A stretch of 35,290 nucleotides of DNA. Source: Erysipelotrichaceae bacterium. GTDB lineage: Bacteria > Bacillota_I > Bacilli_A > Erysipelotrichales > Erysipelotrichaceae. Numbering within the stretch: the first letter of the stretch is position 1; each line of letters starts with the position of its first letter. Shown one piece after another: positions 16,947 through 35,290 of this stretch. The notes below the pieces were generated by a model. The model did no database searches, was not told the DNA's origin, and worked only from the letters and a program-made list of their open reading frames with translations. The DNA is taken from contig JAQXQU010000168.1 of assembly GCA_029101345.1 (NCBI GenBank), positions 1-35,290 of the forward strand, in the 5' to 3' direction. A program made the position numbers and the translations under genes.

Positions 16947-18134
16947 ATGGCACAGTTAACATTAAGGAACATCAAAAAGATCTATCCATTAAGAGATGAT
17001 CAGAAAAAGGATAAGAAAAAGGATTATAAGAAACCTGATGATCCAACAGTCGAAAAAGCTAATCTGGAAGTAACAGCTCGAGGTGTTGTTGCTGTCCAGG
17101 ATTTCAGTATTGATATCAAAGACAAGGAATTCATTGTTTTAGTTGGACCTTCCGGCTGTGGCAAGTCAACAACATTGAGAATGATTGCTGGTCTAGAAGA
17201 AATTACAGAAGGTGAATTATATATTGGTGATCGTCTGGTCAACTCCGTTGAACCAAAGGATCGTGATATTGCCATGGTTTTCCAAAGCTATGCACTTTAT
17301 CCACACATGAGTGTCAGGGATAATATTGCCTACTCTTTAAAGCTCAAGCATTTGCCAAAGGAAGAAATCAATGCCAAGGTTTTGGAAGCAGCAAGAATTC
17401 TTGATATTGAACAGTATCTGGACCGCAAGCCAAAGAACCTCTCAGGTGGTCAAAGACAACGTGTTGCCATTGGTCGTGCAATTGTCAGAGATCCACAGGT
17501 ACTCCTGATGGATGAACCTCTTTCCAATCTTGATGCCAAGCTCCGTAATCAGATGCGTGCTGAAATCATCAAGTTAAGACAGAAGATCAATACTACATTC
17601 ATCTATGTCACTCACGACCAGGTTGAAGCTATGACTTTAGGTGACCGTATTGTTGTCATGAAAGATGGCTACATTCAGCAGATTGGTACACCGCAGGAGG
17701 TCTATTCACATCCAGCTAACCTCTTTGTTTCAGGCTTTATCGGTACACCGGCAATGAACTACTTCGAGGCCAAGCTGGTTATTGATGAAAATGGTGACTA
17801 CAAGGTCGTTACTCCTGAATATGAAACAGTCCTGTCAGAAGGCAAACAGAGAAGACTAAAGGCTTTGGGTGTCAAGGAACAGGATGTAACATTGGGTGTA
17901 CGTCCAGATCATATTGAATTGAGCGATCAGGGTGTTTCCGGCAGAGTTGAAGTATCGGAACTGATGGGTTCATCATATCACCTGCATATCAATTGTGCTG
18001 GCAAGGATGTCATCGCCATTGTTCCAACTGAAGGCAGGGAAATTGATTATGTTGGTCAAAATATCACCATGAAATTCCCTGGCTATGGTTGCCATATCTT
18101 CTCAAAGGAAGATACACATAATCTTGAATATTAG
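16947..18134 (+). CDS. CUT1 sugar transporter ATPase (MsmX/UgpC/MalK type)
   Basis: A 395-residue ABC ATPase energising the importer. Walker A is GPSGCGKS (67-74), the signature is LSGGQRQR (165-172), and Walker B is LLMDEP with D189-E190, followed by LDAKLR and the switch histidine in YVTHDQVEAM. The C-terminal OB-type (TOBE) regulatory domain is present from about residue 240. A lysine-rich insert, DDQKKDKKKDYKKPDD (about residues 17-32), sits between beta strands of the nucleotide-binding domain, much as I recall in other gut Bacillota relatives. AAGGAGG precedes the ATG. Encoding within the operon suggests a dedicated ATPase, although MsmX types may serve several importers. Confidence 0.93.
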   Translation: MAQLTLRNIKKIYPLRDDQKKDKKKDYKKPDDPTVEKANLEVTARGVVAVQDFSIDIKDKEFIVLVGPSGCGKSTTLRMIAGLEEITEGELYIGDRLVNSVEPKDRDIAMVFQSYALYPHMSVRDNIAYSLKLKHLPKEEINAKVLEAARILDIEQYLDRKPKNLSGGQRQRVAIGRAIVRDPQVLLMDEPLSNLDAKLRNQMRAEIIKLRQKINTTFIYVTHDQVEAMTLGDRIVVMKDGYIQQIGTPQEVYSHPANLFVSGFIGTPAMNYFEAKLVIDENGDYKVVTPEYETVLSEGKQRRLKALGVKEQDVTLGVRPDHIELSDQGVSGRVEVSELMGSSYHLHINCAGKDVIAIVPTEGREIDYVGQNITMKFPGYGCHIFSKEDTHNLEY

Positions 18135-18138
18135 CAGA

Positions 18139-18158
18139 TAGGTTCCTGATGGAACCTA
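18139..18158 (+). terminator. Intercistronic hairpin before the cytoplasmic GH5 gene
   Basis: TAGGTTCC and GGAACCTA form a perfect 8-bp stem with a TGAT loop, followed by CTTTTAGGAGG. The short T-run and the immediate ribosome site suggest an attenuating or RNA-stabilising element rather than a full terminator. Confidence 0.45.
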
Positions 18159-18174
18159 CTTTTAGGAGGATGAA

Positions 18175-19197
18175 GTGAAGGATTTCAAAGGGTATAAAAG
18201 AGGCATTAATTTTGGTGGCTGGTTTTCCCAATGTGACAATAGTGAAAAACGCTATGACTATTTCATTAAAAAGGAGGACTTCCGCCGAGTTGCAAGATGG
18301 GGCTTAGACCATGTGAGAATTCCTGTTGACTATAATCTGATTCTCAATGATGATTATAGCTTCAAGGAAAAAGGCTTAAAGCGCATTGATGATTGCATCA
18401 GCTATGCCAAGGAATATGGCCTGAATATGGTACTTGATCTTCATAAGACCATTGGTTTCTCATTTGATGATGGAGAAAATGAATGCGGTTTTTTTGATAA
18501 CGAAAAGTACCAGCAGATCTTCTATGATATCTGGGATGAATTTGCCAAGCGCTTTGGCCATTATGATAATCTGGCCTTTGAACTGTTGAATGAAGTAACT
18601 GATAAGAAGTATAAGGACAAGTGGAATGAAATCAGCAGAAAAGCGATTGAAACCATCAGAGTCCATGCCAAGGACATCAGGATTATAGTTGGCGGCTATC
18701 ACAACAACAGCGTTACAGCTATCAGGGATCTTGAACTCCCATATGATGAGAACATTGTCTATAATTTCCATTGTTACAGCCCATTGATCTTTACCCACCA
18801 GGGTGCCTATTGGATCAAGCAGATGGATACATCTTTCCGAATGGCTTTTGATGCCAGGAACGAAGAATATGAGAAGAATACCAGAAAGTATATTGGCATG
18901 GATTTCCTGGACAGCTTTGGCAAAGCAGATGAAGGCATTGATGCCTCCTATTTCGAAAATCTCTTTATGGATGCCATTCAGATTTCCAAAGAAAGGGATG
19001 TCCCGCTCTATTGTGGGGAATATGGAGTCATTGACTTGGCTGCCCCAATTGATACGGTCAAATGGTTTGCCTGCATTAATGCCATATTCAAAAAATATGA
19101 TATAGGACGAGCAGTCTGGTCCTATAAGGAAATGGATTTTGGGCTCATAGATGCTCATTACGATGATGTGCGCTCTGATATCATCGATTTATTGTAA
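18175..19197 (+). CDS. Cytoplasmic GH5 family glycoside hydrolase
   Basis: A 340-residue GH5 TIM-barrel enzyme without a signal peptide, so it should act in the cytoplasm. Visible hallmarks are GINFGGWFSQ at the start, WGLDHVRIPVDY, LDLHKTIG, the acid/base E140 in ELLNEV, NFHCYSPL, the nucleophile E282 in YCGEYGV, and WSYKEMDFG near the end. It is unlike the surface GH5 protein at 7020 and belongs to a different subfamily. By context it probably trims imported cellodextrins or branched or mixed-linkage beta-glucan oligosaccharides; true specificity is unknown. The GTG start is supported by AGGAGG five bases upstream. It lies between the transporter ATPase and the LacI gene in one operon. Confidence 0.85.
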   Translation: MKDFKGYKRGINFGGWFSQCDNSEKRYDYFIKKEDFRRVARWGLDHVRIPVDYNLILNDDYSFKEKGLKRIDDCISYAKEYGLNMVLDLHKTIGFSFDDGENECGFFDNEKYQQIFYDIWDEFAKRFGHYDNLAFELLNEVTDKKYKDKWNEISRKAIETIRVHAKDIRIIVGGYHNNSVTAIRDLELPYDENIVYNFHCYSPLIFTHQGAYWIKQMDTSFRMAFDARNEEYEKNTRKYIGMDFLDSFGKADEGIDASYFENLFMDAIQISKERDVPLYCGEYGVIDLAAPIDTVKWFACINAIFKKYDIGRAVWSYKEMDFGLIDAHYDDVRSDIIDLL

Positions 19198-19206
19198 GAT
19201 ATAGTT

Positions 19207-20211
19207 ATGATTTCCATTAAAGATATCGCAAAGGAATGCGGAGTCTCGGTTGCGACAGTCTCCAAAGCTCTCAATGACCAGAAGGATGTTTCCAAAACGA
19301 CAAAGGAAAAGGTCTTGGATGTTGCTAATCGTTTAGGTTATACAACCAACCAGGCAGCCAAGGCCTTAAGAACCAAAAAGACCGATAATATCGGAATCCT
19401 TTTTACCAATGTTGGTTCTGATATTTCGATGTCCCATGAATTTTTCTCTCAGATCCTTGACAGTTTTCGGAGCGCTTGTGCAAAAAGAGGCTATGACATC
19501 ACCTTCATAAACAATCGGGTAGGCACACATAAGACTACCTATCTTAATCATGCCCTTTATCGTAATTTTGATGGTGTAGCAATCATTGCGGCTGACTTCC
19601 TTGATACAAGAGTCAGGGAACTGGCAACATCTTCAATTCCAGTAGTAACAGTTGATTATATGTATGATAATTGTGCTGCTGTTTTGTCTGACAATAAGCG
19701 CGGCATTCGTTCAATTGTCGAAAATGCCTATGAAAAGGGCCATAGGAAAATTGCCTTCATTCATGGAGAAACCACTGAAGTTACAACCGAAAGACTTCTA
19801 GGCTTCTATGCAGCATGCGCTGAGTTAGGCATCAAAGTCAGAAATGACTATCTGATTGAATCCAAATATCATGATATCAATCGCTGTGCAGATTGCTTAT
19901 TGCAACTATTGGCGCTAGATGATCCGCCTACTTGCATCATTTTCTCGGACGACTATTCAATGATTGGCGCAATGGATGCTGCCAAAAGAAGAGGTATCAA
20001 TATTCCAGAAAATCTCTCATTTGCTGGTTATGATGGCATTCATATGGCCAAGAGCTTGAATATTACCACTTATGAGCAGGATGCCCATGGTCTTGGCAAG
20101 ACTGCAGCTATCAAGCTGATTGATCTGATCGAAGACAGCAATGCCAAACCAGAAGCAGTCATCATCCCCGGCAAATTCTTTGAAGGGGCTACAATCAAGA
20201 AGATCAATTAG
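19207..20211 (+). CDS. LacI-family transcriptional regulator
   Basis: A 334-residue LacI/GalR repressor. The N-terminal helix-turn-helix reads IKDIAKECGVSVATVSKALN (residues 4-23), followed by the hinge region with AAKALRTKKT and a periplasmic-binding-protein-like sensor domain (GILFTN, TVDY, GYDGIHMAKS). It is the last gene of the transporter operon and very likely controls both arms through the operators at 13401-13580, with a cellodextrin or cellobiose as inducer (inference). The gap to the GH5 gene is nine bases and there is no Shine-Dalgarno site; a weak TAAGAT lies six bases before the ATG. A short terminator follows. Confidence 0.92.
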   Translation: MISIKDIAKECGVSVATVSKALNDQKDVSKTTKEKVLDVANRLGYTTNQAAKALRTKKTDNIGILFTNVGSDISMSHEFFSQILDSFRSACAKRGYDITFINNRVGTHKTTYLNHALYRNFDGVAIIAADFLDTRVRELATSSIPVVTVDYMYDNCAAVLSDNKRGIRSIVENAYEKGHRKIAFIHGETTEVTTERLLGFYAACAELGIKVRNDYLIESKYHDINRCADCLLQLLALDDPPTCIIFSDDYSMIGAMDAAKRRGINIPENLSFAGYDGIHMAKSLNITTYEQDAHGLGKTAAIKLIDLIEDSNAKPEAVIIPGKFFEGATIKKIN

Positions 20212-22693: not shown

Positions 22694-23362
22694 ATGATGA
22701 AGACCTTGGTGATTATTCCTGCCTATAATGAACAGGACAATATAGTAAAGCTGGTAGAAGAAATCAGGAAGTATGACTATGATTATCTGGTCATCAATGA
22801 CTGTTCAAAAGATGAGACAGCCAGGATTCTTGATGAACATCATTTCAGCCACTTTGATTTGCCAATCAACTTAGGTATTGCCGGTGTCACAAGAGTTGGT
22901 TTCCTTTATGCTCGGGATAATGGCTATGATTGTGTTATCTGCATAGATGGTGATGGCCAGCATCAGCCGAAATATATATCATTACTGGAAAATGAAATTG
23001 AAAATGGCATGGATTATTGTGTCGGTTCCCGTTTTGTAAATGAAAAGAAGCCGCGTAATATGCGCATGTTTGGTTCACGCATCCTCTGTGCTTTGATCAA
23101 ATTCAAGACTGGCAAGAAGGTCACTGATCCGACCAGTGGCATGCGGGCTTTAGGACGTCGTCTGATTGAGGATTTCAGCCAGTCCATGAATTTTTATGCC
23201 GAGCCTGATACCATCTGCTATCTCCTGCATCAAGGCTATAAGGTCAAGGAAGTTCAAGTCAAGATGAAGGAAAGGGAAGCTGGTGTTTCCTATTTCCATT
23301 CACCATTCAAGTCCATGTATTTCATGTTAGCGGAGATCATGACCATATTATTTGTCAGGTAA
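22694..23362 (+). CDS. GT2 family glycosyltransferase (dolichol-phosphate mannosyltransferase-like)
   Basis: A 222-residue GT-A glycosyltransferase like DPM1/polyprenyl-phosphate sugar synthases. Motifs are VIIPAYNEQDNI, the first acidic pair in INDCSKDET, the metal-binding DGDGQHQP, and DPTSGMR. It has only the catalytic domain and no C-terminal membrane helices. It probably makes a polyprenyl-phosphate-linked sugar. The following DUF2304 gene is a frequent partner of such stand-alone enzymes and may hold it at the membrane. Two tandem ATGs (22694 and 22697) are possible; the second is seven bases after TATAAT and may be the real leaderless start. Confidence 0.88.
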   Translation: MMKTLVIIPAYNEQDNIVKLVEEIRKYDYDYLVINDCSKDETARILDEHHFSHFDLPINLGIAGVTRVGFLYARDNGYDCVICIDGDGQHQPKYISLLENEIENGMDYCVGSRFVNEKKPRNMRMFGSRILCALIKFKTGKKVTDPTSGMRALGRRLIEDFSQSMNFYAEPDTICYLLHQGYKVKEVQVKMKEREAGVSYFHSPFKSMYFMLAEIMTILFVR

Positions 23363-23367: not shown

Positions 23368-23724
23368 ATGAGTACTAGTTTAAGAATTGGCTTATTATTG
23401 GCATCAATCGGTGTCTTTGCGATTATTGTCTTCTGTGTTGTCAAAAGAAAGGTCAACATCAAATATTCCATTGTCTGGATTCTTTGGGCTTTATTGTCAC
23501 TATTGATGGCTGTCTTCCCTGAGACCTTCTATTTTCTGGCTCATGTCTTAGGTATTGAAATGCCGGTCAATGCGGTCTTTTTGATCATGATTGCCCTCTT
23601 ATATGCCCTGACTTTCTATGTCTATATCACTATTACCAAGCATAATGAGGAAATCATCAAGCTTACCTATGAAATAGCAGCTCTTAAGAAAAGAGTTGAG
23701 GAACTAGAGCAGAATGAAAGATAG
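23368..23724 (+). CDS. DUF2304 membrane protein
   Basis: A 118-residue protein with three predicted membrane helices (about residues 6-25, 33-52 and 68-90) and a charged coiled-coil tail (about 92-117, EIIKLTYEIAALKKRVEEL). This layout and the WALLSLLMAVFPE segment fit DUF2304, a family commonly encoded next to DPM-like GT2 enzymes. Its role is not established; a membrane anchor or partner for the upstream glycosyltransferase is a reasonable inference. It starts five bases after that gene and overlaps the next gene by 11 bases, indicating a tightly coupled trio. Confidence 0.8.
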   Translation: MSTSLRIGLLLASIGVFAIIVFCVVKRKVNIKYSIVWILWALLSLLMAVFPETFYFLAHVLGIEMPVNAVFLIMIALLYALTFYVYITITKHNEEIIKLTYEIAALKKRVEELEQNER

Positions 23725-24943
23725 AATGCTCATAATACCGGGAGGCTTTGTCCCTTATAATGACACAGTCACCCTGCTGAACTACAAGCGCTTAAGGGAA
23801 CTTGATCTTGAAATGGATGTCTTTGCCCTAAGGGCCAAAGAGGATGAGGGATTGGCGCAAGAGCTGAAGAATGACGAATGCTTCAGCCATTTTCATATTA
23901 GCTACAGCTATGAACTGGAGAATGTCGTTCCAAGAAACCATCCATTAAGACTGCCTATCAGCTTCTTCTATATGAAGAGGTATATTGATGATTCCTTGAA
24001 AACATTTGAAAAGAAGGACTACAAATATCTCTTTACTTCCATTGTTCCAGGCATCAGCCATCTTTGTGGCAAGAAGATCAAGAAGAAACATACTGATGTC
24101 ATCTGGTATGCCTCCTTTTCTGATCCTTTCAAGAATTCACCATATAAGAAGGCAGATCTAAAAGGCAAGTCCTTATTATACAAATTCATCTATCAGGTTG
24201 GTGCCTTCTTTCTCTATAACAATGCCTATGAAGAAGCAGCGGTGCGCTATGCTGATAAGCTGATCTTCATCTGTGAGGAACAAAGGGACTATACCCTGGC
24301 CCAATATCCTGACCTTAATCATGAAGAGCTGATGGCTAAAAGCATTATCATGCCCTTGACTTACATTCCTGAATGGAAGATGTATCAGGACATTTTGACA
24401 GCACCTGAAGTTCACAATGAAGTCAGACAATGTGTCCATCTTGGAAGACTATATGGATTAAGAAAGATCGATAGCTTCCTATTGGCACTAAAGGAATTGA
24501 ATGAAGAAATCAAGCATCTGGAAGATCAGATTGTCTTTCATCAGTATTCAGAAATCCAGGACCATGATCTAAGGAAAATCAGGGAATATGGCTTGGATAA
24601 GCTTTTTGTTGTCCATGATAAGGTCAGCTATGACCGCTCAATTGAAATCATGAAGGAAGCTGATGTACTTTTGCTGTTTGACACTTTGATGCCAAATGAC
24701 AAGGTGCAGCCCTATTTGCCAAGCAAGATAGTTGAATATCTGCTCTACCAGAAGCCGATCATTGGCATCTGTGATGCCAACAGCCCATCTTATCGTATCC
24801 TTAAGGAATATGGGTATCAGACCATTGGTTCTGAAAAGGAAAAGATCAAGGAGAATATCAGGTTCATTTTGGAGGATAAAAGCTCCTACCGGCATGATCT
24901 TAGCAAACTGAATGCCCATAACTACAATATGCTAGAATTATAA
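23714..24943 (+). CDS. Predicted GT-B (GT4-like) glycosyltransferase
   Basis: A 409-residue protein that opens with MLIIPGGFVPYNDTVTLLNY, a Rossmann-like start with a substrate loop. It continues to a second domain with CVHLGRLYGLRK, DKVSYDRSIEIMKEADVLLLFD and LPSKIVEYLLYQKPIIG, where the SKIVEYL glutamate occupies the GT4 donor-binding position. It lacks a classic EX7E motif, so the assignment is to the superfamily only. The start overlaps the DUF2304 gene by 11 bases; an internal ATG at 23726 is an alternative. The last codons contain the extended -10 element of the next gene. Confidence 0.75.
   Translation: MKDRMLIIPGGFVPYNDTVTLLNYKRLRELDLEMDVFALRAKEDEGLAQELKNDECFSHFHISYSYELENVVPRNHPLRLPISFFYMKRYIDDSLKTFEKKDYKYLFTSIVPGISHLCGKKIKKKHTDVIWYASFSDPFKNSPYKKADLKGKSLLYKFIYQVGAFFLYNNAYEEAAVRYADKLIFICEEQRDYTLAQYPDLNHEELMAKSIIMPLTYIPEWKMYQDILTAPEVHNEVRQCVHLGRLYGLRKIDSFLLALKELNEEIKHLEDQIVFHQYSEIQDHDLRKIREYGLDKLFVVHDKVSYDRSIEIMKEADVLLLFDTLMPNDKVQPYLPSKIVEYLLYQKPIIGICDANSPSYRILKEYGYQTIGSEKEKIKENIRFILEDKSSYRHDLSKLNAHNYNMLEL
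24930..24938 (+). promoter_or_regulatory. Extended -10 promoter inside the upstream gene, leaderless type
   Basis: TGC TAGAAT is followed by TATAAAG and then the ATG at 24946, a 7-base spacing. The element overlaps the last codons of the upstream glycosyltransferase. No Shine-Dalgarno sequence precedes the ATG. Confidence 0.5.
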
Positions 24944-24945: not shown

Positions 24946-27018
24946 ATGAAATTTATCGAACTATTATTTGAAAGAATCAAGAAAAATTATCAGGGACTAG
25001 GCATAATTGCCATTGCTTTTATTGCTGTCATCTGTCTTGTCCTTAATAGCTATGGCCCTACTTTAGGAGTAGAGTCTTTTGGCAATGAATCCTATGTTCG
25101 AAGTGTCTATGAACTGGATAAAGAGACAACCATCAAGGCTATTGTTCCGGTTGAAGAAGACAGTGAAGCCCTTTCCCTTCTTTTTGCAACCTATGCTCGG
25201 AGCAACAGTGGCCAAGTCAGCATCAAGATCAGAGGCACGGTTACCAATACTCTATATGTGGAGCGAATTGTCAATGTCTCCGATATTGTTGATAATGCCT
25301 ATCTCACTTCTAAATTCAGTGAAAAGCTAAGGGAAGCAGATAAGCAGGTGGAGATTGAATTGTCCAGTAATAGTGAAAATGGTAAAGCAGTAGGCGTTTA
25401 CTATACAACCAACAGCTATTTTGACAATTCCTCTTTTACCATCAATGATGAAGTGATGGATGGTTATGACCTGTCAGTTCGAACACTGGCAATCGATTCT
25501 TCCTATCAGAACTTTGCCAATACTCTGATTGCCTTTACAATCATCTCCTTTGGGGTTTTGATGGCTTATGCTTTGCTGCTAGAGCCAAGAAAGGAAGTGC
25601 TCTTTGCAATATCCGCCTTTGTTCTGGGACTGATCTTCATGATAATCATTGTTCCAATGTCACCGCCAGATGAACAGACCCATTATGAACTTGCCCTGCA
25701 GATATCCAATAAGATGATGGGTGTCAAAGACAATCTGATTGACAGCATTTATCTGAAGTATGGTTCCATGTATGGCCATTATAATATCTCAGCTGGCTAT
25801 GGCCGCTTGATGAGAGAATTCCTGCAGCCATTAAAACTGACAGGCCAGATGATAAAACCGGCTGGTGACCTGGAAGGACGTTATCTGATTCCTTATCTGC
25901 CAATATCTTTGGGCATCAGCATTGGCAGAATGGTGGGCATGAATATGATTACCATGTTCTACTTTGCCCGTTTCTTTAATCTGCTTTTCTATGTTCTTTG
26001 CGTTTATCTTTCAGTCAAGACAATACCGGCCTATAAGTCATTGATTGGCATTTTGATGATCATGCCAATGATGCTTCAGACATCAATAGCCATTACCTAT
26101 GATGCCTTTGTCATCGGTCTTTCATATCTGTCCTTTGCCTATTTTTTGAAATGGTTCTTTGCTGGTGATGTTATTGAAATCAAGGAAATCATCATGGTCT
26201 TTTTGATCTGTGCAGGACTGGCGCCAGCCAAGGTTGTCTACTGTTTCCTGGCCTTTGCCTTCATTTTTGTGCCAACCAAGGCCTTTGGTTCCAGAAAAAG
26301 AAAGATCATAACCAATGTCATTCTATGCATTCCAGCCATCATTGCCTTATATGGCATCATGGCGGCTCCTTTGTCCTTTATGTTCAAAAAGCTCTTTGCT
26401 AGCAGCAATACCTTGAGCCTGACCTTGCAGGAAACAAAGGATCTGATTATTGCCAATGTCAATCAATATGATCTCAATGGTGTTGGTATCAGGGAAGGCG
26501 TGACTTTCAATACCATTCTCACCAATCCAGGTGCTGTTCTTGAGATTTTCATCAGGACTGTCCGCTATCGGATCAAGACCTGGTTCTATGGTTCCTTGGG
26601 CCGTTCATTATCAGGTGATACACTCATCATTCCTCTGAAAATGGTCCATATTATGGTCGGCATTGTCATAGCACAATTGCTTGTCAAGCAAGATCTCAGT
26701 GTTCCATGGTGGATCAGGACTCTTTCAGTCATCATGTGCATTGTCATTGGCCTCTATATTCTGATTGGTTTCTTCCTCTCCTGGACTGGTGTTGATGAAC
26801 TGCTCTTCAACAGCAATAATGCCGCTATCTTTGGTGGTCAGGTAGTTGAGGGCATCCAAGGCCGTTATTTCTCGCCAATCCTTCCATATTTTTTCATTCT
26901 TTTCCAACATAAGAAGTTCGGTTTAAGCGAAAAGTCTGAAAAATATATCTATTGTGCATATCTGATTCTGCTGTTTAGCATCATCATCTATATTCTTTCC
27001 TATACTTTTGTCAATTAA
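24946..27018 (+). CDS. DUF2142 polytopic membrane protein
   Basis: A 690-residue membrane protein. One N-terminal helix (about 17-36) is followed by an extracytoplasmic domain of about 145 residues (43-185) and then many membrane helices. The signature PPDEQTH (240-246) at the end of a helix is typical of DUF2142, a family found in surface-polysaccharide loci and thought to resemble GT-C type membrane glycosyltransferases. The family function is unproven. The soluble domain resembles the N-terminal domain of the ABC exporter permease at 29156. A GT-C transferase or a polymer-modifying enzyme using a polyprenyl-phosphate sugar made by the 22694 enzyme is plausible. Confidence 0.82.
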   Translation: MKFIELLFERIKKNYQGLGIIAIAFIAVICLVLNSYGPTLGVESFGNESYVRSVYELDKETTIKAIVPVEEDSEALSLLFATYARSNSGQVSIKIRGTVTNTLYVERIVNVSDIVDNAYLTSKFSEKLREADKQVEIELSSNSENGKAVGVYYTTNSYFDNSSFTINDEVMDGYDLSVRTLAIDSSYQNFANTLIAFTIISFGVLMAYALLLEPRKEVLFAISAFVLGLIFMIIIVPMSPPDEQTHYELALQISNKMMGVKDNLIDSIYLKYGSMYGHYNISAGYGRLMREFLQPLKLTGQMIKPAGDLEGRYLIPYLPISLGISIGRMVGMNMITMFYFARFFNLLFYVLCVYLSVKTIPAYKSLIGILMIMPMMLQTSIAITYDAFVIGLSYLSFAYFLKWFFAGDVIEIKEIIMVFLICAGLAPAKVVYCFLAFAFIFVPTKAFGSRKRKIITNVILCIPAIIALYGIMAAPLSFMFKKLFASSNTLSLTLQETKDLIIANVNQYDLNGVGIREGVTFNTILTNPGAVLEIFIRTVRYRIKTWFYGSLGRSLSGDTLIIPLKMVHIMVGIVIAQLLVKQDLSVPWWIRTLSVIMCIVIGLYILIGFFLSWTGVDELLFNSNNAAIFGGQVVEGIQGRYFSPILPYFFILFQHKKFGLSEKSEKYIYCAYLILLFSIIIYILSYTFVN

Positions 27019-27027: not shown

Positions 27028-28125
27028 ATGCGTGCTGTTGTTGTTACCTGCTTTGAGTCAAATGAGAAAAGAGCCCACTTGGCCTATGAGACCTTAAAGG
27101 GCAAGGGCTATGAATTGCTAGCGCTAACTAGCAATTTTTCTCATGTCAAAAAGTCCTATCGTCAGGAAACAATAGCTGATTTTCAGGCAATAGAAACCAA
27201 GAGCTATCGGAAGAATCTCTCAATTGATCGGATGTTATCCCACCGAAGATTTGCCAAAGATGCCTTTAAGCAGATTGAAGAATATGATCCTGATCTCATC
27301 TATTGTCTGGCACCTGCCAATTCATTAATCAAGGAATGTGATGATTATAAGAAAAGACATCCTGCCTGCAAGATCATCATTGATATTATTGACATGTGGC
27401 CGGAATCCTTGCCTTTGTCCTTCTTAAGGAAGACACCGCCAGCCTATTTATGGCGCAAACTTAGGAAAGACCATCTGTCCTGTGCTGATCTGGTGATTGC
27501 TGAATGCGCCTATTATCTTGAAACACTAAAGAAAGAATACCAGGGTGCGATCAAGGTTATCTATTGGTGCAAGGATGAGGGCATCTATCAGACAAAGGCG
27601 ATTGAAGGAAATAAGCTAAGACTTTGTTACCTGGGCTCCATTAACAATATCATCGCTATTGATCTTATTAGAAAGACCATTGAAAACTGTCAAATGGATG
27701 TTGAAGTCCATATCATCGGTGATGGAGAAAAAAGAGAGGAAATGGTCAAAAGCCTTGGGGAAGTTGCGGATGTCAAATATCATGGTCTCGTCTATGATGC
27801 AAAGAAGAAGAAGGAAATCATGGGCAATTGCCATGCAGGCATCAATATCTATAAGGAAGGACTTTATATCGGCCTTACCAGCAAATGCATTGATTATTTC
27901 CAATATGGTTTGCCACTAATAAACAACATCAAGTCTGATACCTTTGATTTCATCAATAACTATGATGTTGGTTTCAATATAGATCAGGATTGCCGCTTTG
28001 ATGTTAAGAAGATCATTGCATTAAGAAACAACAACCAGCCAATCTATGAATTCTATCTGTCCCATTTTTCAAAGGAAGTCTTTATAAGGGATTTGGAAGC
28101 CATCATTGAAGAGGTACAAGGATGA
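27028..28125 (+). CDS. GT4-like glycosyltransferase
   Basis: A 365-residue GT-B protein. Visible features are MRAVVVTCFESNEKRA at the start, DLIYCLAPANSLI and IIIDIIDMWPESLPL in the acceptor domain, and LRLCYLGSINNIIAIDLI, VHIIGDGEKREEM and a LTSKCIDYFQYGLPLI donor segment. The diagnostic glutamate pair is not obvious, so I assign superfamily only. It begins nine bases after the DUF2142 stop without a ribosome site and overlaps the next gene by four bases (ATGA), so it is part of the same transcription unit. Confidence 0.8.
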   Translation: MRAVVVTCFESNEKRAHLAYETLKGKGYELLALTSNFSHVKKSYRQETIADFQAIETKSYRKNLSIDRMLSHRRFAKDAFKQIEEYDPDLIYCLAPANSLIKECDDYKKRHPACKIIIDIIDMWPESLPLSFLRKTPPAYLWRKLRKDHLSCADLVIAECAYYLETLKKEYQGAIKVIYWCKDEGIYQTKAIEGNKLRLCYLGSINNIIAIDLIRKTIENCQMDVEVHIIGDGEKREEMVKSLGEVADVKYHGLVYDAKKKKEIMGNCHAGINIYKEGLYIGLTSKCIDYFQYGLPLINNIKSDTFDFINNYDVGFNIDQDCRFDVKKIIALRNNNQPIYEFYLSHFSKEVFIRDLEAIIEEVQG

Positions 28126-29033
28126 AGATAGCAGTACTATTATCCAGTTATAATGGTGAAAAATATCTTGGTGAACAGCTGGATTCCCTGATCAATCAGA
28201 GCCTAAGACCAAGTCAGATCATCATTCGTGATGATGGCTCAACTGATGGGACTTTTGCAATACTGGATAAGTATTGCCAGGAATATGATTTCATCAGCTA
28301 TGAAAAAGGCGAAAATCTAAGACCAGCCCGGTCCTTTATGGAATTGATTAGGAAGGCACCGGATGCTGATTATTATGCCTTATGCGATCAGGATGATGTC
28401 TGGTTCAGGGATAAGCTCAAAAGAGCTGTATTAATGCTGCAAAAGGAAGATGAAAACCAAGCGCTTTTATATTGTGGCCGCTTTATCTTGACGGATGAGA
28501 AGCTCAATCCCTTAGAGTCAGAAGTCTCTTCCTTATATTCCTATACAGACTTTGCCCATAGTCTGCTTTATACTACAGCACCTGGCTGTACGATGGTCTT
28601 TAATGCAAGGGCACGTGATTATATCATTCGCTATGATATGAATAAGGAATATGTCATTATCCATGATTCCATCATCCATAAGGTTGTAGCGATGTTTGGC
28701 AAAGTCATCCTTGATGAAGAACCAATGATGTATTATCGCCAACATGGAAGTAATGAGATTGGTCTTGATGGCAATATCATCAAGGCCAATATCAAGCGTA
28801 TTTCAAGATTCCTTGGTGGCAAATCCCGGAAGATCCGTTCCAAGACAGCCCAGTCATTGATAAATGTCTATGGATCTGATTGTCCAAAGGATAAGCTGGA
28901 CTTGCTTGAATGCGTGGCCTTCTATGAAATTGACAGCAACTATCAAAGAAGGCTATTAAAGGATAAATGCTTTAAGGTTGCGGGCATCAATTATGTCCTG
29001 TTTAAAGTGCTTGTTTTATTGAGGTATATCTGA
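28122..29033 (+). CDS. GT2 family glycosyltransferase (rhamnosyltransferase-like)
   Basis: A 303-residue GT-A inverting glycosyltransferase. It shows AVLLSSYNGEKYLGEQLDSL, the first aspartates in IIRDDGSTDGT, and the acceptor-side CDQDDVWFRDKL, a signature shared with many rhamnosyltransferases of O-antigen and capsule loci. That donor is only a suggestion. The gene overlaps its upstream neighbour by ATGA, with AAGG nearby for reinitiation, and its own TGA overlaps the ATG of a 32-codon ORF. Confidence 0.88.
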   Translation: MKIAVLLSSYNGEKYLGEQLDSLINQSLRPSQIIIRDDGSTDGTFAILDKYCQEYDFISYEKGENLRPARSFMELIRKAPDADYYALCDQDDVWFRDKLKRAVLMLQKEDENQALLYCGRFILTDEKLNPLESEVSSLYSYTDFAHSLLYTTAPGCTMVFNARARDYIIRYDMNKEYVIIHDSIIHKVVAMFGKVILDEEPMMYYRQHGSNEIGLDGNIIKANIKRISRFLGGKSRKIRSKTAQSLINVYGSDCPKDKLDLLECVAFYEIDSNYQRRLLKDKCFKVAGINYVLFKVLVLLRYI

Positions 29034-29131
29034 TGGCTAATAATAAGAACCGGATGGCTGGACTTGATCTTTTGACCCTAATTCTCAAGAAGCTTCCAGT
29101 TCTTGGGGGGATTGGTTTCTTTCTAGAATGA
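29033..29131 (+). CDS. Small coupled ORF, 32 codons, unknown
   Basis: An ATG overlaps the upstream stop codon as TGATG and opens a 32-residue reading frame starting MANNKNRMAGLDLL and ending GGIGFFLE. I do not recognise it. The TGATG overlap is a classic translational-coupling junction, which argues that it could be made. It could instead be a remnant of a lost gene or a chance ORF ahead of the exporter operon. Its last bases abut the extended -10 element of the exporter gene. Confidence 0.35.
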   Translation: MANNKNRMAGLDLLTLILKKLPVLGGIGFFLE

Positions 29132-29139
29132 TAGGATGA

Positions 29140-29148
29140 TGTTATAAT
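29140..29148 (+). promoter_or_regulatory. Extended -10 promoter, leaderless type, of the exporter genes
   Basis: TGT TATAAT (perfect hexamer at 29143-29148) is followed by TGATTAG and then the ATG at 29156. The 7-base spacing places the predicted start on the A of ATG. No Shine-Dalgarno sequence is present. Confidence 0.6.
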
Positions 29149-29155
29149 TGATTAG

Positions 29156-30574
29156 ATGAATAGTAAAAGATTAGCTAAGATCTATAGAGGCATCTTTGCC
29201 GTCTTTCTGTCACTGCTGGTTCTGTTCTTCTTTTTAGCTGGTGAACAGCTCAAGTATCGTGATGGACAAAATGTCATTAATGTCACCGAGGCTACTGGTT
29301 CAACTGTTGAACTGACCTCAGGTGTTATAGTTGAACAGCTCTTTATCAGTGATATCGACAGACTTAAGTCTGTCTCTTTCCTATGTACAACCCACTATCG
29401 CGATAATACCGGTTATTTGAATGTTGTGCTTAAATGTGGGGAGGAAGTGCTGATTGAAGAGATCGTCAGTGTAGCAGATATCAAGGAAAATGTTCCGGTT
29501 GTTGCTGAAGCAGATGAATATCTTGAAGGTTATCGGGGCAAACAATTGACCCTGTTGATATCAGGCACCTCTAAAGAAGGGAAGGCCGTTTCAGTATTGC
29601 TTAATTCTGCTAGTACGGCTGGTATTTCCCTCTATGTTGGCCAGCACAAGCCAGGCTCCATCTGCTTTTCCACTACTGGCCAGGACTTTGTCTTTACTGG
29701 CCAGCACTATTGGCAAATGGTTGCTGGCTTATCAGCAGCTTTAGCCCTTGGCCTCTATGTTTCCTATAAGCATTATGAAAAGACTGGCAAGGACTATGCT
29801 GTCTCTGTCATTTTGGCAATGGAACGCTATGAGTTTTTGATTTCCCAACTTGTTTCCCGTGACTTCAAAACCAAATACAAGCGTTCAGTTCTTGGTGTTT
29901 TCTGGTCCTTCCTCAATCCATTATTGACGATGACTGTCCAATATATTGTCTTCTCGACTTTGTTTAGGAATGATATTGCCAATTATCCGGTCTATCTATT
30001 GACAGGTATCATCTGTTTCTCTTTCTTCAATGAAGTAACCAATATGTGCCTGTCATCCATTACTGGCAATGCCAACCTTGTCAAGAAGGTCTATATGCCA
30101 CGCTATATCTTCCCAATCTCCAGAACTATCTCTTCATCCATCAATCTTGCCATCTCCCTGATACCTTTATTACTGGTATCGCTAATAACAGGTGTGGCAT
30201 TGAGGAAGTCACTTGTGCTGATGCTGTTCTTCTTGATATGCCTTATCATCTTCTCTTTGGGTGTTGGCATGTTCTTATCCGCTACGATGGTCTTCTTCAG
30301 GGATATCCAATTCCTTTGGAGTGTTGTAGTGATGATGTGGCAATATGGAACACCAATCTTCTATTCACCATCCATCATTCCTCCTCGTTTCTCATTCATT
30401 CTCAAATTCAATCCTATCTATCATTTCATCAAGAATGTCAGAATGTGTCTGATTGATGGCATTTCACCAGAACCACGTGCTTACGCCATCTGTTTTGCCT
30501 TTGCATTATTGTCACTGCTGATTGGATCTGTTGTCTTCAAGAAGACCCAGGATTCCTTCACACTTTATTTATAA
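29156..30574 (+). CDS. ABC-2 polysaccharide exporter permease with extra N-terminal domain
   Basis: A 472-residue membrane protein whose last 250 residues form a typical Wzm/TagG/RfbA-type ABC-2 permease: the amphipathic RYEFLISQLVSRDFKTKYKR (about 224-243), SVLGVFWSFLNPLLTM, and six membrane helices ending near FNPIYHFIKNVR and the C-terminus. These permeases are normally about 260-270 residues. Here an additional N-terminal helix (about 10-29), a roughly 150-residue extracytoplasmic domain (35-185) and a second helix (about 185-205) precede the permease. The extra domain resembles the one in the DUF2142 protein. With the ATPase at 30587 it should export the lipid-linked glycan. The start is seven bases after an extended -10. 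Confidence 0.88.
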   Translation: MNSKRLAKIYRGIFAVFLSLLVLFFFLAGEQLKYRDGQNVINVTEATGSTVELTSGVIVEQLFISDIDRLKSVSFLCTTHYRDNTGYLNVVLKCGEEVLIEEIVSVADIKENVPVVAEADEYLEGYRGKQLTLLISGTSKEGKAVSVLLNSASTAGISLYVGQHKPGSICFSTTGQDFVFTGQHYWQMVAGLSAALALGLYVSYKHYEKTGKDYAVSVILAMERYEFLISQLVSRDFKTKYKRSVLGVFWSFLNPLLTMTVQYIVFSTLFRNDIANYPVYLLTGIICFSFFNEVTNMCLSSITGNANLVKKVYMPRYIFPISRTISSSINLAISLIPLLLVSLITGVALRKSLVLMLFFLICLIIFSLGVGMFLSATMVFFRDIQFLWSVVVMMWQYGTPIFYSPSIIPPRFSFILKFNPIYHFIKNVRMCLIDGISPEPRAYAICFAFALLSLLIGSVVFKKTQDSFTLYL

Positions 30575-30586
30575 GGGGATTAGCTT

Positions 30587-31330
30587 ATGCCTGAAAATAT
30601 GATTGAAGTACGTAATGTCACAATGAAATTCAGGATGGGCAACCAGCCTATCAATTCCCTTAAGGAATATGTGACAACAACCCTCAAGGGGACTTTGAAG
30701 TTCAATGAATTTGTAGCACTCAATGATCTTTCCTTTGATGTCAAAAGAGGAGAGACCCTGGGTTTTGTGGGAAGAAATGGTGCAGGCAAATCCACTACCT
30801 TGAAATGCATATCGGGTATCCTGAAACCAACAAGCGGATCAATAAAAGCCTATGGGAATATTGTTCCAATGCTTGAACTGGGTGCAGGTTTTGATTTGGA
30901 GTTGACTGGCCGGGAGAATATCTATTTAAATGGAGCAGTTCTTGGCTATTCCAAAGCCTATTTGGATGATAAATACAATGAAATTGTGGAATTCTCTGAA
31001 CTTGGCGATTTCATTGAAATGCCAATCAGAAGCTATTCCTCAGGAATGATGGCCCGACTAGCCTTTTCCATTGCGTCTATAGTCCAGCCGGAAATACTGA
31101 TTGTCGATGAAATCCTTTCAGTAGGTGATGCGGCATTCAAGGAAAAGTCCAGCCAACGTATGAAGGAACTGATGACGGGTGGTACGACGGTACTATTTGT
31201 TTCCCATGATATTGACAAGATTGAAGAATTATGTGATAAGGTCATCTGGTTGGAACATGGCAAGAAGATTGCCTATGGTGATGCCAAGGAGATCTGTGAT
31301 TTGTATCGCAACAAGGGGGTCAAGAAATGA
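30587..31330 (+). CDS. ABC polysaccharide exporter ATPase (Wzt/TagH type)
   Basis: A 247-residue ATPase that powers glycan export with the permease at 29156. Walker A is GRNGAGKST, the distinctive GAGFDLELTGRENIYLNG segment of Wzt/TagH proteins is present, the signature region is RSYSSGMMARLAFS, and Walker B is ILIVDEILSVGD with a VSHDIDKIE switch. It stops after the nucleotide-binding domain and lacks the C-terminal carbohydrate-binding domain found in O9a-type Wzt. AAGGGG precedes the ATG by about 10 bases. It overlaps the next gene by ATGA. Confidence 0.92.
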   Translation: MPENMIEVRNVTMKFRMGNQPINSLKEYVTTTLKGTLKFNEFVALNDLSFDVKRGETLGFVGRNGAGKSTTLKCISGILKPTSGSIKAYGNIVPMLELGAGFDLELTGRENIYLNGAVLGYSKAYLDDKYNEIVEFSELGDFIEMPIRSYSSGMMARLAFSIASIVQPEILIVDEILSVGDAAFKEKSSQRMKELMTGGTTVLFVSHDIDKIEELCDKVIWLEHGKKIAYGDAKEICDLYRNKGVKK

Positions 31331-32472
31331 TCAATGTGTTGATAGTATCCAATTCCCTGATTCCTTCAGTCCTGCTTTGTGGCCATAGCCAAATGGAATA
31401 TCTTGAGTCAATCAAGGAAGTGAAATACAGGTTTCTTGCGGCATCAAAGCTAAATGATGATATTTTGTCATGGGCTAATATCATCATTTTTCTAAGAAGT
31501 GAGAGCCTGATAGAACGTTATGCTTCTGATTTGGCCAAGAAAGCAGGCAAACATCTGGTCTATGTCCTTGATGATGATCTTTTGAATATCCCTGACTATC
31601 TATCATCAGTCGCCTATTACCAAAGAACAGATATCAAGGATAATATCAAGCATATCATGGCCAATTGTGACACATTCCTGACTCCCTCAAGAATCATGGT
31701 CAATACCTATGGCACGAGTTTCAATCATGCCTTTACAATAGATGAACCAGCCTTATATCCAATTGAGGAAAAGAAGGATAATGCCATTACCAGGATTGGT
31801 TTTGCTGGATCAATTGATCGAGCTCAGGATATCAATGATATCCTTTCAGCTGCCCTTTTGAAGATCAGCAGCAAATATGGCAATTCTGTCAGTATTGAAT
31901 TCATTGGGGCAAGACCGGCTATTGTTGATGAACTGGGCCTTAAGCATATCCCTTATCAGGATTCCTATGCCGTCTATGAAGAAAAGGTGAAGGAAGCCAA
32001 TTGGGATATTGGTCTGGCGCCAATGCCACAAACTGCTTTCCATTCCTGCAAGTACTTCAATAAATATGTCGAATATGCTTCTTTTGGCATTGTTGGCATC
32101 TATTCCAACTGTTCACCATATACCTTTGGCATCAAGGATGGCTATAATGGTCTCTTGGTTGAAAATGATACTGATGCCTGGGTTTCAGCTATTTCCAAAC
32201 TGATTGATGACAAAGCCTTAAGAGACAGCATGAAAGAAAACTGTCTAAAGGAAGCGCGGGATATCTATAACATTGAAGTTTTGGCCAGAGACTATTTCAA
32301 TAAGATCATGGAAGGCTATCAGCCAAATGATGCAAGAGTCAGTGGCATGTGGAGATACCACTTCAGATGCTTTGTCTTAAAAGTAATCTACAAGGTCAAG
32401 GAGCAGGGACTAAACCTTCCAGTCTGGGCCTTTAAGAAGATCATGAAGAAATTCAAGCATGAACGATGGTGA
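31327..32472 (+). CDS. GT-B (GT4-like) glycosyltransferase
   Basis: A 381-residue protein with a GT-B layout. An N-terminal domain (VLIVSNSLIPSVLLCGHSQMEYL, ANIIIFLRSES, YVLDDDLLNIP) is followed by a donor domain (ITRIGFAGSIDRAQDIND, WDIGLAPMPQT, KYFNKYVEYASFGIVGIYS, YNGLLVENDTDAW). The KYVEYAS glutamate is in the GT4 donor-binding position. It probably adds one sugar of the exported glycan. A basic C-terminal tail (IKKVK-like, ending KKFKHERW) may contact the membrane. ATGA overlap with the ATPase gene indicates coupling. Confidence 0.8.
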   Translation: MINVLIVSNSLIPSVLLCGHSQMEYLESIKEVKYRFLAASKLNDDILSWANIIIFLRSESLIERYASDLAKKAGKHLVYVLDDDLLNIPDYLSSVAYYQRTDIKDNIKHIMANCDTFLTPSRIMVNTYGTSFNHAFTIDEPALYPIEEKKDNAITRIGFAGSIDRAQDINDILSAALLKISSKYGNSVSIEFIGARPAIVDELGLKHIPYQDSYAVYEEKVKEANWDIGLAPMPQTAFHSCKYFNKYVEYASFGIVGIYSNCSPYTFGIKDGYNGLLVENDTDAWVSAISKLIDDKALRDSMKENCLKEARDIYNIEVLARDYFNKIMEGYQPNDARVSGMWRYHFRCFVLKVIYKVKEQGLNLPVWAFKKIMKKFKHERW

Positions 32473-32546
32473 ATTGATGAATCTTTGATATTGGAAGCAT
32501 TAATGATGAAGATGTTGATATCATCTATGGACTAACAATCGACCTT

Positions 32547-32909
32547 GTGGAAGAATATGAAGATCTGACAAGCATTGATTATCCCAAAGTCAGGAAATGG
32601 CTTAGAAATAAGATCATAAGCTGTCAGAATGAATATCGTGCTATCTATTGTCAAGATAGGAAAGTCGGATACTTTCATCTTTCCAGTAGTGAAGGCATGC
32701 AGGAACTTGATGATTTTCATATCCTGAAGAAATATCAAGGAAAAGGCATTGGAACAGCACTTATCAAAGATATCACTAGCAAATATCCTGCTGTTTTCCT
32801 TTATGTCTTCAAAAAAAATACAAGAGCAATCGCTCTTTACGAAAGGCTAGGCTTTCGGATAACAAGAGAATATCGGACGAGGCTGATTATGGAATATCAT
32901 GGCAAATAA
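32547..32909 (+). CDS. GNAT family N-acetyltransferase, uncertain start
   Basis: This reading frame encodes a 120-residue GNAT acetyltransferase with the acetyl-CoA loop YQGKGIGTALI and the YERLGFRI C-terminal motif. The substrate is unknown. The GTG start used here removes what looks like genuine N-terminal sequence: the frame stays open upstream to 32481 and encodes DIGSINDEDVDIIYGLTIDL, a normal first strand and helix, yet contains no ATG, GTG or TTG. An ATG at 32478 reads ATG AAT CTT TGA, and a +1 shift at CTT TGA would join it to that sequence. The gene may be frameshifted or use an unusual start. It follows the glycosyltransferase gene by 74 bases. Confidence 0.7.
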   Translation: MEEYEDLTSIDYPKVRKWLRNKIISCQNEYRAIYCQDRKVGYFHLSSSEGMQELDDFHILKKYQGKGIGTALIKDITSKYPAVFLYVFKKNTRAIALYERLGFRITREYRTRLIMEYHGK

Positions 32910-32911
32910 AA

Positions 32912-32939
32912 AAAGTACACTGCAAAGGCAGTGTACTTT
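32912..32939. terminator. Strong bidirectional terminator
   Basis: AAAGTACACTGC and GCAGTGTACTTT form a perfect 12-bp stem with an AAAG loop. A seven-A run on the left gives a good T-tract for the minus-strand dehydrogenase, and CTTTCAGTTTTA serves the plus-strand glycan operon. Confidence 0.88.
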
Positions 32940-32950
32940 CAGTTTTAGTC

Positions 32951-34096
32951 TTACATCAATGAACGGTAGAGGGCTTCAATATCCTCAACTGTGCATTCTC
33001 TTGGATTGCCAGGACGGCAAGCGTCATTGTAAGCATCAATTGACAACTGGTGCAGATCCTCTTCCTTGACAATACCCTTGAGTGAGCATTCAATGCCTAC
33101 ATCATTAGCCAATTGCTTGACAGCATCAATTGCAGCCTTGCGGTATTCTTCCTGACTCATTTCATCAACACCTTGAACACCCATGACTCTGGCGATTTCA
33201 CGATACTTTTCACCAGTTACTGGCGCATTGAATTCCATGGCTGTTGGCAGAAGTGTTGCACAAGCCTTGCCATGTGGCATGTCATAGTAAGCAGAAAGGG
33301 TATGGGCCATTGCATGGTCAACACCCAAGCCGACATTTGAGAAGCCCATGCCGGCAACATACTGGCCTAATGCCATATCTTCACGACCCTTAGGATCATT
33401 ATTGACAGCACCTCTTAAGCCACGGGCAATGATTTCAATAGCCTTGATGTGGAACATGTCTGACAGTTCCCAAGCACCAAGAGTAATGTAGCCTTCAATC
33501 GCATGAGTTAGAGCATCCATGCCAGTGGCGGCTGTTAAGCCTTTTGGCATTGAAGACATCATATCTGAGTCAACAACAGCGATAATTGGAATGTCATGTG
33601 GGTCAACACAGACAAACTTTCTCTTCTTTTCAACATCGGTAATGACATAGTTGATAGTTACTTCAGCAGCAGTGCCGGCAGTTGTTGGAACAGCTATGAT
33701 TGGCACACATGGGTTCTTGGTAGGCGCAACACCTTCCAATGAGCGGACATCTGCAAATTCCGGATTAGTGATGATAATGCCAATAGCTTTGGAAGTATCC
33801 ATTGATGAACCACCGCCAATAGCGATAATGCAATCAGCTGCTGATTCCTTGAAAGCCGCAACACCAGTCTGGACATTTTCAATTGTTGGATTTGGCTTGA
33901 TATTGGAATAAAGGACATATGGGATATTTGCTTTCTCCAAGAGGTCGGTGACCTTGCCAGTAACTCCGAACTTGACCAGATCAGGGTCAGATGCGACAAA
34001 AGCCTTCTTAAAGCCACGGTTCTTCATTTCTTCTGGAATGATGGAAATGCAACCAGCGCCATGATAAGAAGTCTCGTTTAAGACAAATCTGTTCAT
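32951..34096 (-). CDS. fucO: Iron-containing alcohol dehydrogenase, lactaldehyde reductase (FucO) type
   Basis: A 381-residue group III alcohol dehydrogenase, nearly the same length as E. coli FucO (382) and similar across its whole length. FucO reduces L-lactaldehyde, made from fucose or rhamnose, to 1,2-propanediol with NADH. Visible are the cofactor loop IGGGSSMDTSKAIG, PTTAGTAAEVTINYVI, and the metal ligands D194, H198, H261 and H275 in GMDALTHAIEGY and VDHAMAH...MPHG. AAGGAG lies about 10 bases before the ATG, with TGC TAAAAT upstream. It stands alone between two glycan genes on the opposite strand. Other small-alcohol or aldehyde substrates are possible. Confidence 0.88.
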   Translation of the reverse strand: MNRFVLNETSYHGAGCISIIPEEMKNRGFKKAFVASDPDLVKFGVTGKVTDLLEKANIPYVLYSNIKPNPTIENVQTGVAAFKESAADCIIAIGGGSSMDTSKAIGIIITNPEFADVRSLEGVAPTKNPCVPIIAVPTTAGTAAEVTINYVITDVEKKRKFVCVDPHDIPIIAVVDSDMMSSMPKGLTAATGMDALTHAIEGYITLGAWELSDMFHIKAIEIIARGLRGAVNNDPKGREDMALGQYVAGMGFSNVGLGVDHAMAHTLSAYYDMPHGKACATLLPTAMEFNAPVTGEKYREIARVMGVQGVDEMSQEEYRKAAIDAVKQLANDVGIECSLKGIVKEEDLHQLSIDAYNDACRPGNPRECTVEDIEALYRSLM

Positions 34097-34123
34097 ATTA
34101 TTTATTATCTCCTTGTTAAGGAT

Positions 34124-34132
34124 ATTTTAGCA
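34124..34132 (-). promoter_or_regulatory. Candidate fucO promoter, extended -10
   Basis: On the minus strand TGC TAAAAT lies 27 bases before the ATG, leaving a leader long enough for the AAGGAG ribosome site. The -35 region is not recognisable. Confidence 0.4.
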
Positions 34133-34187
34133 CAGTTTGCAAGAGTTGGTGCTTATGGATCGGACAATGGTCTATGGGTTTATAGTG

Positions 34188-34196
34188 TGCTAGAAT
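34188..34196 (+). promoter_or_regulatory. Extended -10 promoter, near-leaderless type
   Basis: TGC TAGAAT (34191-34196) is followed by 10 bases and the ATG at 34207, so any leader would be only a few bases. No Shine-Dalgarno sequence is present. Confidence 0.5.
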
Positions 34197-34206
34197 ATAG
34201 ATATCT

Positions 34207-35290
34207 ATGAAAACTCAAAGAAACCACAAGGAAAACCTGAAAACCTTCTATATTGTCATTGATATGCTGATCTGTGTGTCAATGTTTCTGATAATGCTAA
34301 TCAAGTTCTATGGTGTCATCAATTACTATTTCAATGGTTATGTCATCATTACTGCCATCTATCTAGGCCTATTGTCATTATTTGTTGAAATCTTTGAAGT
34401 CTTCCGCCTAGGCGAGACAAGAGTCAGGGATATGTTTCTGTCCTATTGCTTGGCAGCCTTTGCGACTAATTTCATCATCTACTTCATCATGTCATTGATT
34501 GCCTATCGGATGCTCATGGTTCTTCCGATCCTTATTCTGCTGATATTGCAGATTGTGGCAATGGCAACGCTCTTATATCTTGAAAACCGTCATTTGCGTG
34601 ATTGCTTTCCGATCCCAAAAGCAATTGCCATCTTTGGTGAGCCTAATTATGAAATCCTGGCCAAGATCTATCCATATCGGGATATCCTGGTTACAGTTGA
34701 TAAGAGCGTTGATGTTGAGGATATCAGCTTTGATAAGCTTGATGAACTATTAGCTGGCTATGAGCGTGTCATTACTGTTGATGTCGACCATAATGACAAG
34801 AAGCTGATTTTCAAGAAGTGTTATGAGGAACATATCACCGTCTATGATATTCCGAGCATTTCCGATACATTGATAGCTTCAAGCAGTGTAATGCATGTCA
34901 TTGATACCCCAATCCTCAAGATTGGACGTTTTGGTCCTAATGAACTGGAAGCCATTATCAAGCGTTTGATTGACATTCTTGGTTCCCTTGTCCTATTGAT
35001 CATTGCCTCACCAGTCATGCTTATTACAGCGCTGGCAATCAAGCTCAATGATGGCGGTGATATCCTCTTTAAGCAAAAGCGCTTAGGCCTCAATGGCAGG
35101 GAATTCATGGTCTACAAGTTCCGTTCAATGATCATGGATGCGGAAAAGAATACTGGTGCCATCCTGGCTAAGAACAATGATGATCGCATTACCAAGGTGG
35201 GAAAATTCATCCGTATGACGAGAATTGATGAACTCCCACAGCTGATCAATATCTTAAAAGGGGAAATGACTTTTGTGGGTCCTCGTCCTG
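34207..35290 (+). CDS. Polyprenyl-phosphate glycosyl-1-phosphate transferase, partial
   Basis: The first 361 residues of a bacterial sugar transferase (WbaP/CpsE-type initiating enzyme) that runs off the right edge. Four membrane helices (about residues 14-120) are followed by a CoA-binding-like soluble domain (AIAIFGEPNYEILAKIY) and a re-entrant helix (KRLIDILGSLVLLIIASPVM). The catalytic core then shows FKQKRLGLNGREFMVYKFRSM, ITKVGKFIRMTRIDELPQL and FVGPRP. The enzyme transfers a sugar-1-phosphate from a nucleotide sugar to undecaprenyl phosphate, the first step of glycan assembly, matching the upstream exporter and glycosyltransferases. The start follows an extended -10 with almost no leader. 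Confidence 0.92.
   Translation, partial: MKTQRNHKENLKTFYIVIDMLICVSMFLIMLIKFYGVINYYFNGYVIITAIYLGLLSLFVEIFEVFRLGETRVRDMFLSYCLAAFATNFIIYFIMSLIAYRMLMVLPILILLILQIVAMATLLYLENRHLRDCFPIPKAIAIFGEPNYEILAKIYPYRDILVTVDKSVDVEDISFDKLDELLAGYERVITVDVDHNDKKLIFKKCYEEHITVYDIPSISDTLIASSSVMHVIDTPILKIGRFGPNELEAIIKRLIDILGSLVLLIIASPVMLITALAIKLNDGGDILFKQKRLGLNGREFMVYKFRSMIMDAEKNTGAILAKNNDDRITKVGKFIRMTRIDELPQLINILKGEMTFVGPRP

Follow-up and report, generated by a model that had tools for sequence, protein, structure and literature searches.

The ABC exporter permease and the DUF2142 protein encoded in the window (the whole stretch of Erysipelotrichaceae DNA analysed here, 35,290 nucleotides) carry homologous extracytoplasmic domains, and this shared domain is real and wider in occurrence than the original prediction saw. 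In the reading that we favor, to which we assign a probability of about 0.5, a carbohydrate-module-like domain would hold a polymer where it leaves the channel (the permease copy) and next to the site of its decoration (the DUF2142 copy). The genes and domains of the locus are listed in Table 1.

Table 1. Features of the glycan locus, with positions in the window.
Feature	Position	Strand	Basis
GT2 glycosyltransferase, GacI/WpsA-like, probable lipid-phosphate-sugar synthase	22694..23362	+	Glycos_transf_2 E 2.4e-24; directly before DUF2304 gene
DUF2304 small membrane protein, GacJ/WpsB-like	23368..23724	+	PF10066 E 1.1e-21
Glycosyltransferase-like gene, no Pfam match	23714..24943	+	ORF; conserved in most Erysipelotrichaceae relatives
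DUF2142 protein, 690 aa, predicted GT-C-fold membrane enzyme	24946..27018	+	PF09913 E 7.3e-31; model vs PDB
DUF2142-protein extracytoplasmic beta-sandwich domain, predicted (residues 42-184)	25069..25497	+	Model, PDB neighbours Z 12.3-12.9, profile match
Glycosyltransferase, GT4-like	27028..28125	+	Glyco_trans_1_4 E 1.6e-4
Glycosyltransferase family 2	28122..29033	+	Glycos_transf_2 E 3.7e-20
Deletion scar, 3' end of Acyl_transf_3 gene	29067..29131	+	91% identity to acyltransferase gene end in G000:C192; reads LTLILKKLPVL
ABC-2 exporter permease (Wzm/TagG type), 472 aa, N-terminal TM1-domain-TM2 extension	29156..30574	+	ORF; ABC2_membrane
Permease extracytoplasmic beta-sandwich domain, predicted (about residues 35-178)	29258..29689	+	AlphaFold2 model, profile match, PDB neighbours
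Permease transport core (residues 216-472)	29801..30571	+	Pfam; median 76% identity among relatives
ATPase partner of the permease, 247 aa, lacking a C-terminal carbohydrate-binding domain	30587..31330	+	ABC_tran only (Pfam)
Glycosyltransferase, GT4-like	31327..32472	+	Glycos_transf_1 E 1.3e-6

The ABC-2 core of the permease (ABC2_membrane, PF01061, E 2.1e-21) begins only at residue 229 and extends to residue 430, so that about 215 N-terminal residues are extra, as the original prediction held; these comprise a soluble domain flanked by two membrane helices. The closest NCBIfam model is a galactan exporter permease, and the best models for the adjoining ATPase are teichoic acid and galactan exporter ATPases, all below their cut-offs. 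A C-terminal sugar-binding domain of the Wzt type is absent from the ATPase, as had also been noted, with Pfam giving only ABC_tran and overlapping AAA matches. By sequence the exporter is of the Wzm/TagG type, with lipid-linked polysaccharide as its putative substrate. In the permease and the DUF2142 protein alike, the domain lies between the first and second membrane helices, following a lysine/arginine-rich N-terminus, and in the permease the second helix continues into the transporter core, which starts in the cytoplasm; together with the known topology of Wzm, these features support the earlier placement of both domains and indicate that they probably face outside.

The membrane part of the DUF2142 protein is predicted to have a GT-C fold, as its model aligns with ALG12 (residues 214-687; Z 15.9, 298 residues), ArnT (residues 210-689; Z 12.1) and STT3 (Z 11.9). 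The residues P241-D242-E243 are invariant in 15 sequences and sit just past a membrane helix, where the predicted topology would make them the acidic motif of the first external loop. The model thus points to a GT-C-type enzyme with putative sugar transfer from a lipid-phosphate donor. The GT2, DUF2304 and GT-C genes (starting at 22694, 23368 and 24946) are in one gene run, with the glycosyltransferase-like gene (23714) between them, and resemble a GacI/GacJ or WpsA/WpsB/WpsJ-type set with a putative lipid-phosphate-GlcNAc product. A GT2 gene directly before a DUF2304 gene is the order described for GacI-GacJ and WpsA-WpsB, and DUF2304 is typical of GacJ-like proteins (PMC8327497). An ABC exporter in these Gram-positive sets moves the backbone, and GacI/GacJ (WpsA/WpsB) and a GT-C protein add the side group outside (PMC8327497, PMC10821137, PMC12599335).

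The soluble domains had been proposed to line up, and they do so in pairwise and profile comparisons alike. A single BLASTP comparison of the two window proteins aligns permease residues 71-153 with DUF2142 residues 74-157 (E 2e-7), phmmer searches of about 1,900 ORFs of relatives retrieve each family with the other (best E 8e-6 and 1.6e-7), and an iterated permease-domain profile gathers the DUF2142 domains (E 1e-26 to 3e-36). The permease and DUF2142 profiles align in hhalign with 99.6% probability (E 2.6e-24), and profiles trimmed to the domain with 99.5% probability and a score of 133, against a maximum of 19 in 100 column shuffles and 22 for a reversed profile. The shared motifs originally quoted (R.N.G, E.IV.V.DI..N and GKAV.V) are present; for R.N.G, conservation of the three named residues in order is 86, 64 and 91% in the permeases and 90, 100 and 100% in the DUF2142 proteins, and this motif and an acidic position are retained across the two families despite about 20% identity. 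The low pairwise identity (about 23–29%) could point to chance, or to the shared composition of two beta-rich domains, but the shuffled and reversed controls, the reciprocal searches and the matching folds contradict this, and we reject it as scarcely conceivable.

AlphaFold2 models were computed separately, each protein from its own family's alignment alone, with a mean pLDDT of 88 for permease residues 1-215 and 77 for the DUF2142 protein overall (76-94 per ten-residue block within the domain). Both predicted domains are jelly-roll beta-sandwiches of the kind found in carbohydrate-binding modules, with strands at permease residues 34-178 and DUF2142 residues 42-183 in identical order, and the best PDB chains are the same for both (Z 12-13), as expected if the original prediction of a common domain is correct. 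Both match a phi812 baseplate protein (Z 12.3-13.1), a PBCV-1 capsid protein (Z 12.3-12.5) and a Bxb1 tail protein (Z 10.0-10.9). The lectin-like domain in Cwp84 is another neighbour (Z 10.9 and 9.7), as are modules from carbohydrate esterases (Z 9.2 and 8.3); many CBMs, CBM27 and a porphyran-binding one among them, come in at Z 7-8, a range in which these and the BcsB matches may reflect a common arrangement only. Neither an LptF/G/C/A-type fold nor the Wzt domain is among the PDB matches listed for either domain. No Pfam, NCBIfam or PDB sequence family consistently covers the domain, and a PDB sequence search with it returns one match (E 0.5). The modelled fold is carbohydrate-module-like.

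In the window's genus the domain is present in 19 of 36 genomes and DUF2142 in 18, the same genomes except one (G148), whose contig starts just before the stand-alone gene and so excludes the DUF2142 position. Most domain-bearing loci of this genus encode a third copy immediately before the permease gene, a stand-alone, single-helix protein of 173-180 residues. The window itself lacks it. The DUF2142 copies group as a single clade in the domain tree (support 100/99), and the stand-alone copies are nested among the Erysipelotrichaceae permease domains. Across a sample of Bacilli, the domain is found in 4 of 296 genomes, all within the ten that have DUF2142 and on the same contig; without the query, the three domain-bearing genomes all fall within the nine DUF2142 genomes of 295 (p 2e-5). 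The domain is fused to DUF2142 in the window and in G012, and is encoded as a separate TM-domain-TM gene beside DUF2142 in G299 and G239.

Outside the window's genus, mainly in Clostridia, most domain-bearing genomes encode permease copies only, and 10 of the 15 with a domain-bearing permease have no DUF2142. The carriers of a domain-bearing permease include culturable commensals such as Agathobaculum and Anaerosporobacter. The co-occurrence with DUF2142 that had been suggested as a check is strict within the genus but fails in these 10 genomes outside it. In the order of Anaerosporobacter the domain is present in 13 of 196 genomes, on permeases, DUF2142 proteins, other GT-C-like proteins, an Acyl_transf_3 fusion and a sulfatase-like protein (the sulfatase assignment is by eye for L145; that for L120, which comes from the search outside the genus, is by Pfam, with a weak domain match). 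The TM-domain-TM unit recurs on ABC permeases, DUF2142 proteins, other GT-C enzymes, an acyltransferase fusion, sulfatase-type proteins and stand-alone proteins beside DUF2142, and because of these other carriers and the 10 genomes without DUF2142 the domain is not specific to the exporter/DUF2142 pair. We found no description of a permease domain of this kind in the open-access literature.

Some domain-bearing proteins have unusual architectures. L118 (718-1944) encodes a 409-aa protein with two tandem domain copies between its first and last helices, beside a DPM-like GT2 gene, and L144 (28-3147) a 1,040-aa protein in which the domain is joined to an Acyl_transf_3 unit and to another unit of several helices. 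A domain-bearing permease is also present at L060 (6801-8216) on a contig labelled Mucispirillum (Deferribacterota), reflecting either inter-phylum transfer or misbinning.

The permease domain has a median identity of 38% among relatives versus 76% for the transport core, a faster divergence that would be expected of a part that follows the glycan; in the DUF2142 protein the corresponding figures are 40% for the domain and 46% for the remainder. One relative (L051) has a permease of 326 residues that keeps both helices and lacks almost exactly the domain, the boundaries being read by eye where the automatic alignment places the gap imprecisely, and its DUF2142 protein retains its domain. Extra co-variation of the permease and DUF2142 domains was not found in a partial Mantel test, which had low power with its 12 loci (r -0.01, p 0.51), and a direct partnership of the two is accordingly unsupported by co-variation beyond that of the rest of the locus at this sample size.

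The exporter resembles the Wzm/Wzt O-antigen exporter in being an ABC-2 polysaccharide exporter that bears a jelly-roll domain, but in Wzm/Wzt the domain is on the ATPase, whereas in the window it is on the permease, predicted to be outside, and the ATPase has none (PMC9445017). The C-terminal carbohydrate-binding domain of Wzt is cytoplasmic, selects the chain before transport and also functions when supplied in trans (PMC9445017). Since the two domains would act on opposite sides of the membrane, we reject a relocated Wzt domain with the same gatekeeping role (PMC9445017); recognition at the exit, if true, would differ in kind from that by the known cytoplasmic domain. The wall polymer exporter TagGH of B. 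subtilis similarly has an extra extracytoplasmic domain, thought to bind wall polymer, but this is SH3b-like, unrelated, and joined to the ATPase through an extra helix (PMC11466899).

The DUF2142 protein has its closest analogues in EmbC and ORF12/GT136, GT-C enzymes acting outside the membrane whose beta-sandwich modules bind the acceptor glycan (PMC3044687, PMC11127046). The polymer decorated by ORF12 is one that an ABC transporter exports, as we propose for that of the DUF2142 protein, and the ORF12 module bound glycan yet was dispensable for activity (PMC11127046). Unlike in the window, the module is C-terminal in both, and the parts of these papers used here describe no exporter counterpart (PMC11127046, PMC3044687). 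The lactococcal and streptococcal WpsA-WpsB-WpsJ and GacI-GacJ systems likewise place GT2, DUF2304 and DUF2142/GT-C genes beside a backbone ABC exporter (PMC10821137, PMC8327497, PMC12599335). In contrast to the window, the portions of those accounts drawn on here, compared by description rather than by sequence, mention no domain shared by exporter and GT-C protein.

In LptFG-LptC a glycolipid is handed on by homologous jelly-rolls, one set on the transporter and one on a partner with a single helix. The likeness to the window is one of arrangement only, as no homology was found and there is no fold match among the PDB matches listed; the jelly-roll of LptFG has been described (PMC11466899).

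How such a locus might work can be outlined. The beta-sandwich copies would be held outside the membrane on a two-helix hairpin; the ABC exporter would move a lipid-linked polymer across the membrane, and the domains of the permease dimer would bind or orient the emerging chain at the exit. The GT2 and DUF2304 (GacI/GacJ-like) proteins would make a lipid-phosphate sugar, which the DUF2142 GT-C enzyme would add to the same polymer outside, its own domain copy holding the acceptor. The original prediction was that the domain recognises the glycan or a common partner and so links polymer modification to export. The homology, the shared predicted fold and the outward side are supported; specificity to the pair is not. 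Glycan recognition is the leading explanation, and a plausible one, because the fold is carbohydrate-module-like and the EmbC and ORF12/GT136 modules bind acceptor glycan; a specific link between the two copies, whether by hand-off or complex, is possible, the one co-variation test having given no support. Taken broadly, the data suggest that surface sugar chains may be gripped by related modules during export and decoration. We advance more tentatively, and as rather doubtful, the larger proposal of an unnamed glycan-handling module, a two-helix cassette grafted onto exporters and several unrelated decorating enzymes, whose copies here (in relatives also the stand-alone one) would hold one and the same chain and hand it on from exit to enzyme, and so couple export and decoration physically.

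Glycan holding draws on the homology and common predicted fold of the two copies, on the lectin-like, esterase and CBM structures among the PDB neighbours, on the recurrence of the unit on several glycan-processing machines and its association with DUF2142 in Bacilli, and on the divergence of the domain and its characterised analogues. Weighing against it, domains of a phage baseplate and a virus capsid give the strongest structural matches, those to CBMs and BcsB reach only Z 7-8, the ligand and binding site are putative, L051 keeps an exporter whose permease has no domain, the copies show no extra co-variation, and the ORF12 module is dispensable. An alternative, in which the permease, stand-alone and DUF2142 copies pair into an export-decoration complex and bind no sugar, would suit the adjacent genes for three paralogues in most Erysipelotrichaceae loci and the branching of the stand-alone copies within the permease domains; it is unlikely, given the many genomes with permease copies only, the 10 of 15 without DUF2142, the co-variation result and the window's want of a stand-alone copy.

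We also regard as unlikely a generic extracytoplasmic cap, a wall-contact or stability domain with no specific ligand on membrane proteins of glycan loci. Its presence on chemically different machines (transporters, GT-C enzymes, acyltransferase, sulfatase), its clean loss in L051 and the unrelated SH3b-like extracellular domain of TagGH (PMC11466899) would fit such a role, but every identified carrier handles surface glycans, and R.N.G and the acidic position are kept between families so dissimilar in sequence. Glycan holding bears on the recognition of ABC-exported polymers as they emerge and on the matching of outside decoration to export, a question made testable by a module that exporter and decorating enzymes have in common and that nature has gained, split off and lost in different relatives. 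The unnamed family could also aid annotation of GT-C, acyltransferase and exporter genes in gut Bacillota.

Several other features of these loci are of note. Contig C192, from the same bin, has the whole Acyl_transf_3 gene (L125, 2003-2960), of which the window retains only the 3' end, within the interval between the GT2 and permease genes (29034-29155); a short repeat (ATCTNTTGA) suggests a deletion there. This slot holds the stand-alone domain gene in most relatives, and GT2 and YdjC genes in L051. The contig (G000:C192) is a second version of window positions 27074-35290, 85-89% identical and binned in the same genome, from either strain mixture or contamination. In L055 (9525-11300) the ATPase continues, by fusion or read-through, into a polysaccharide pyruvyl transferase domain. 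A 395-aa ABC ATPase at 16947 was considered as a second Wzt and rejected, being a MalK-type sugar importer ATPase; it lies within a likely cellodextrin-use cluster (7020-20211), apparently unrelated to the glycan locus, which includes two GH94-type proteins, two GH5 cellulases, a sugar importer with the MalK-type ATPase and a LacI regulator.
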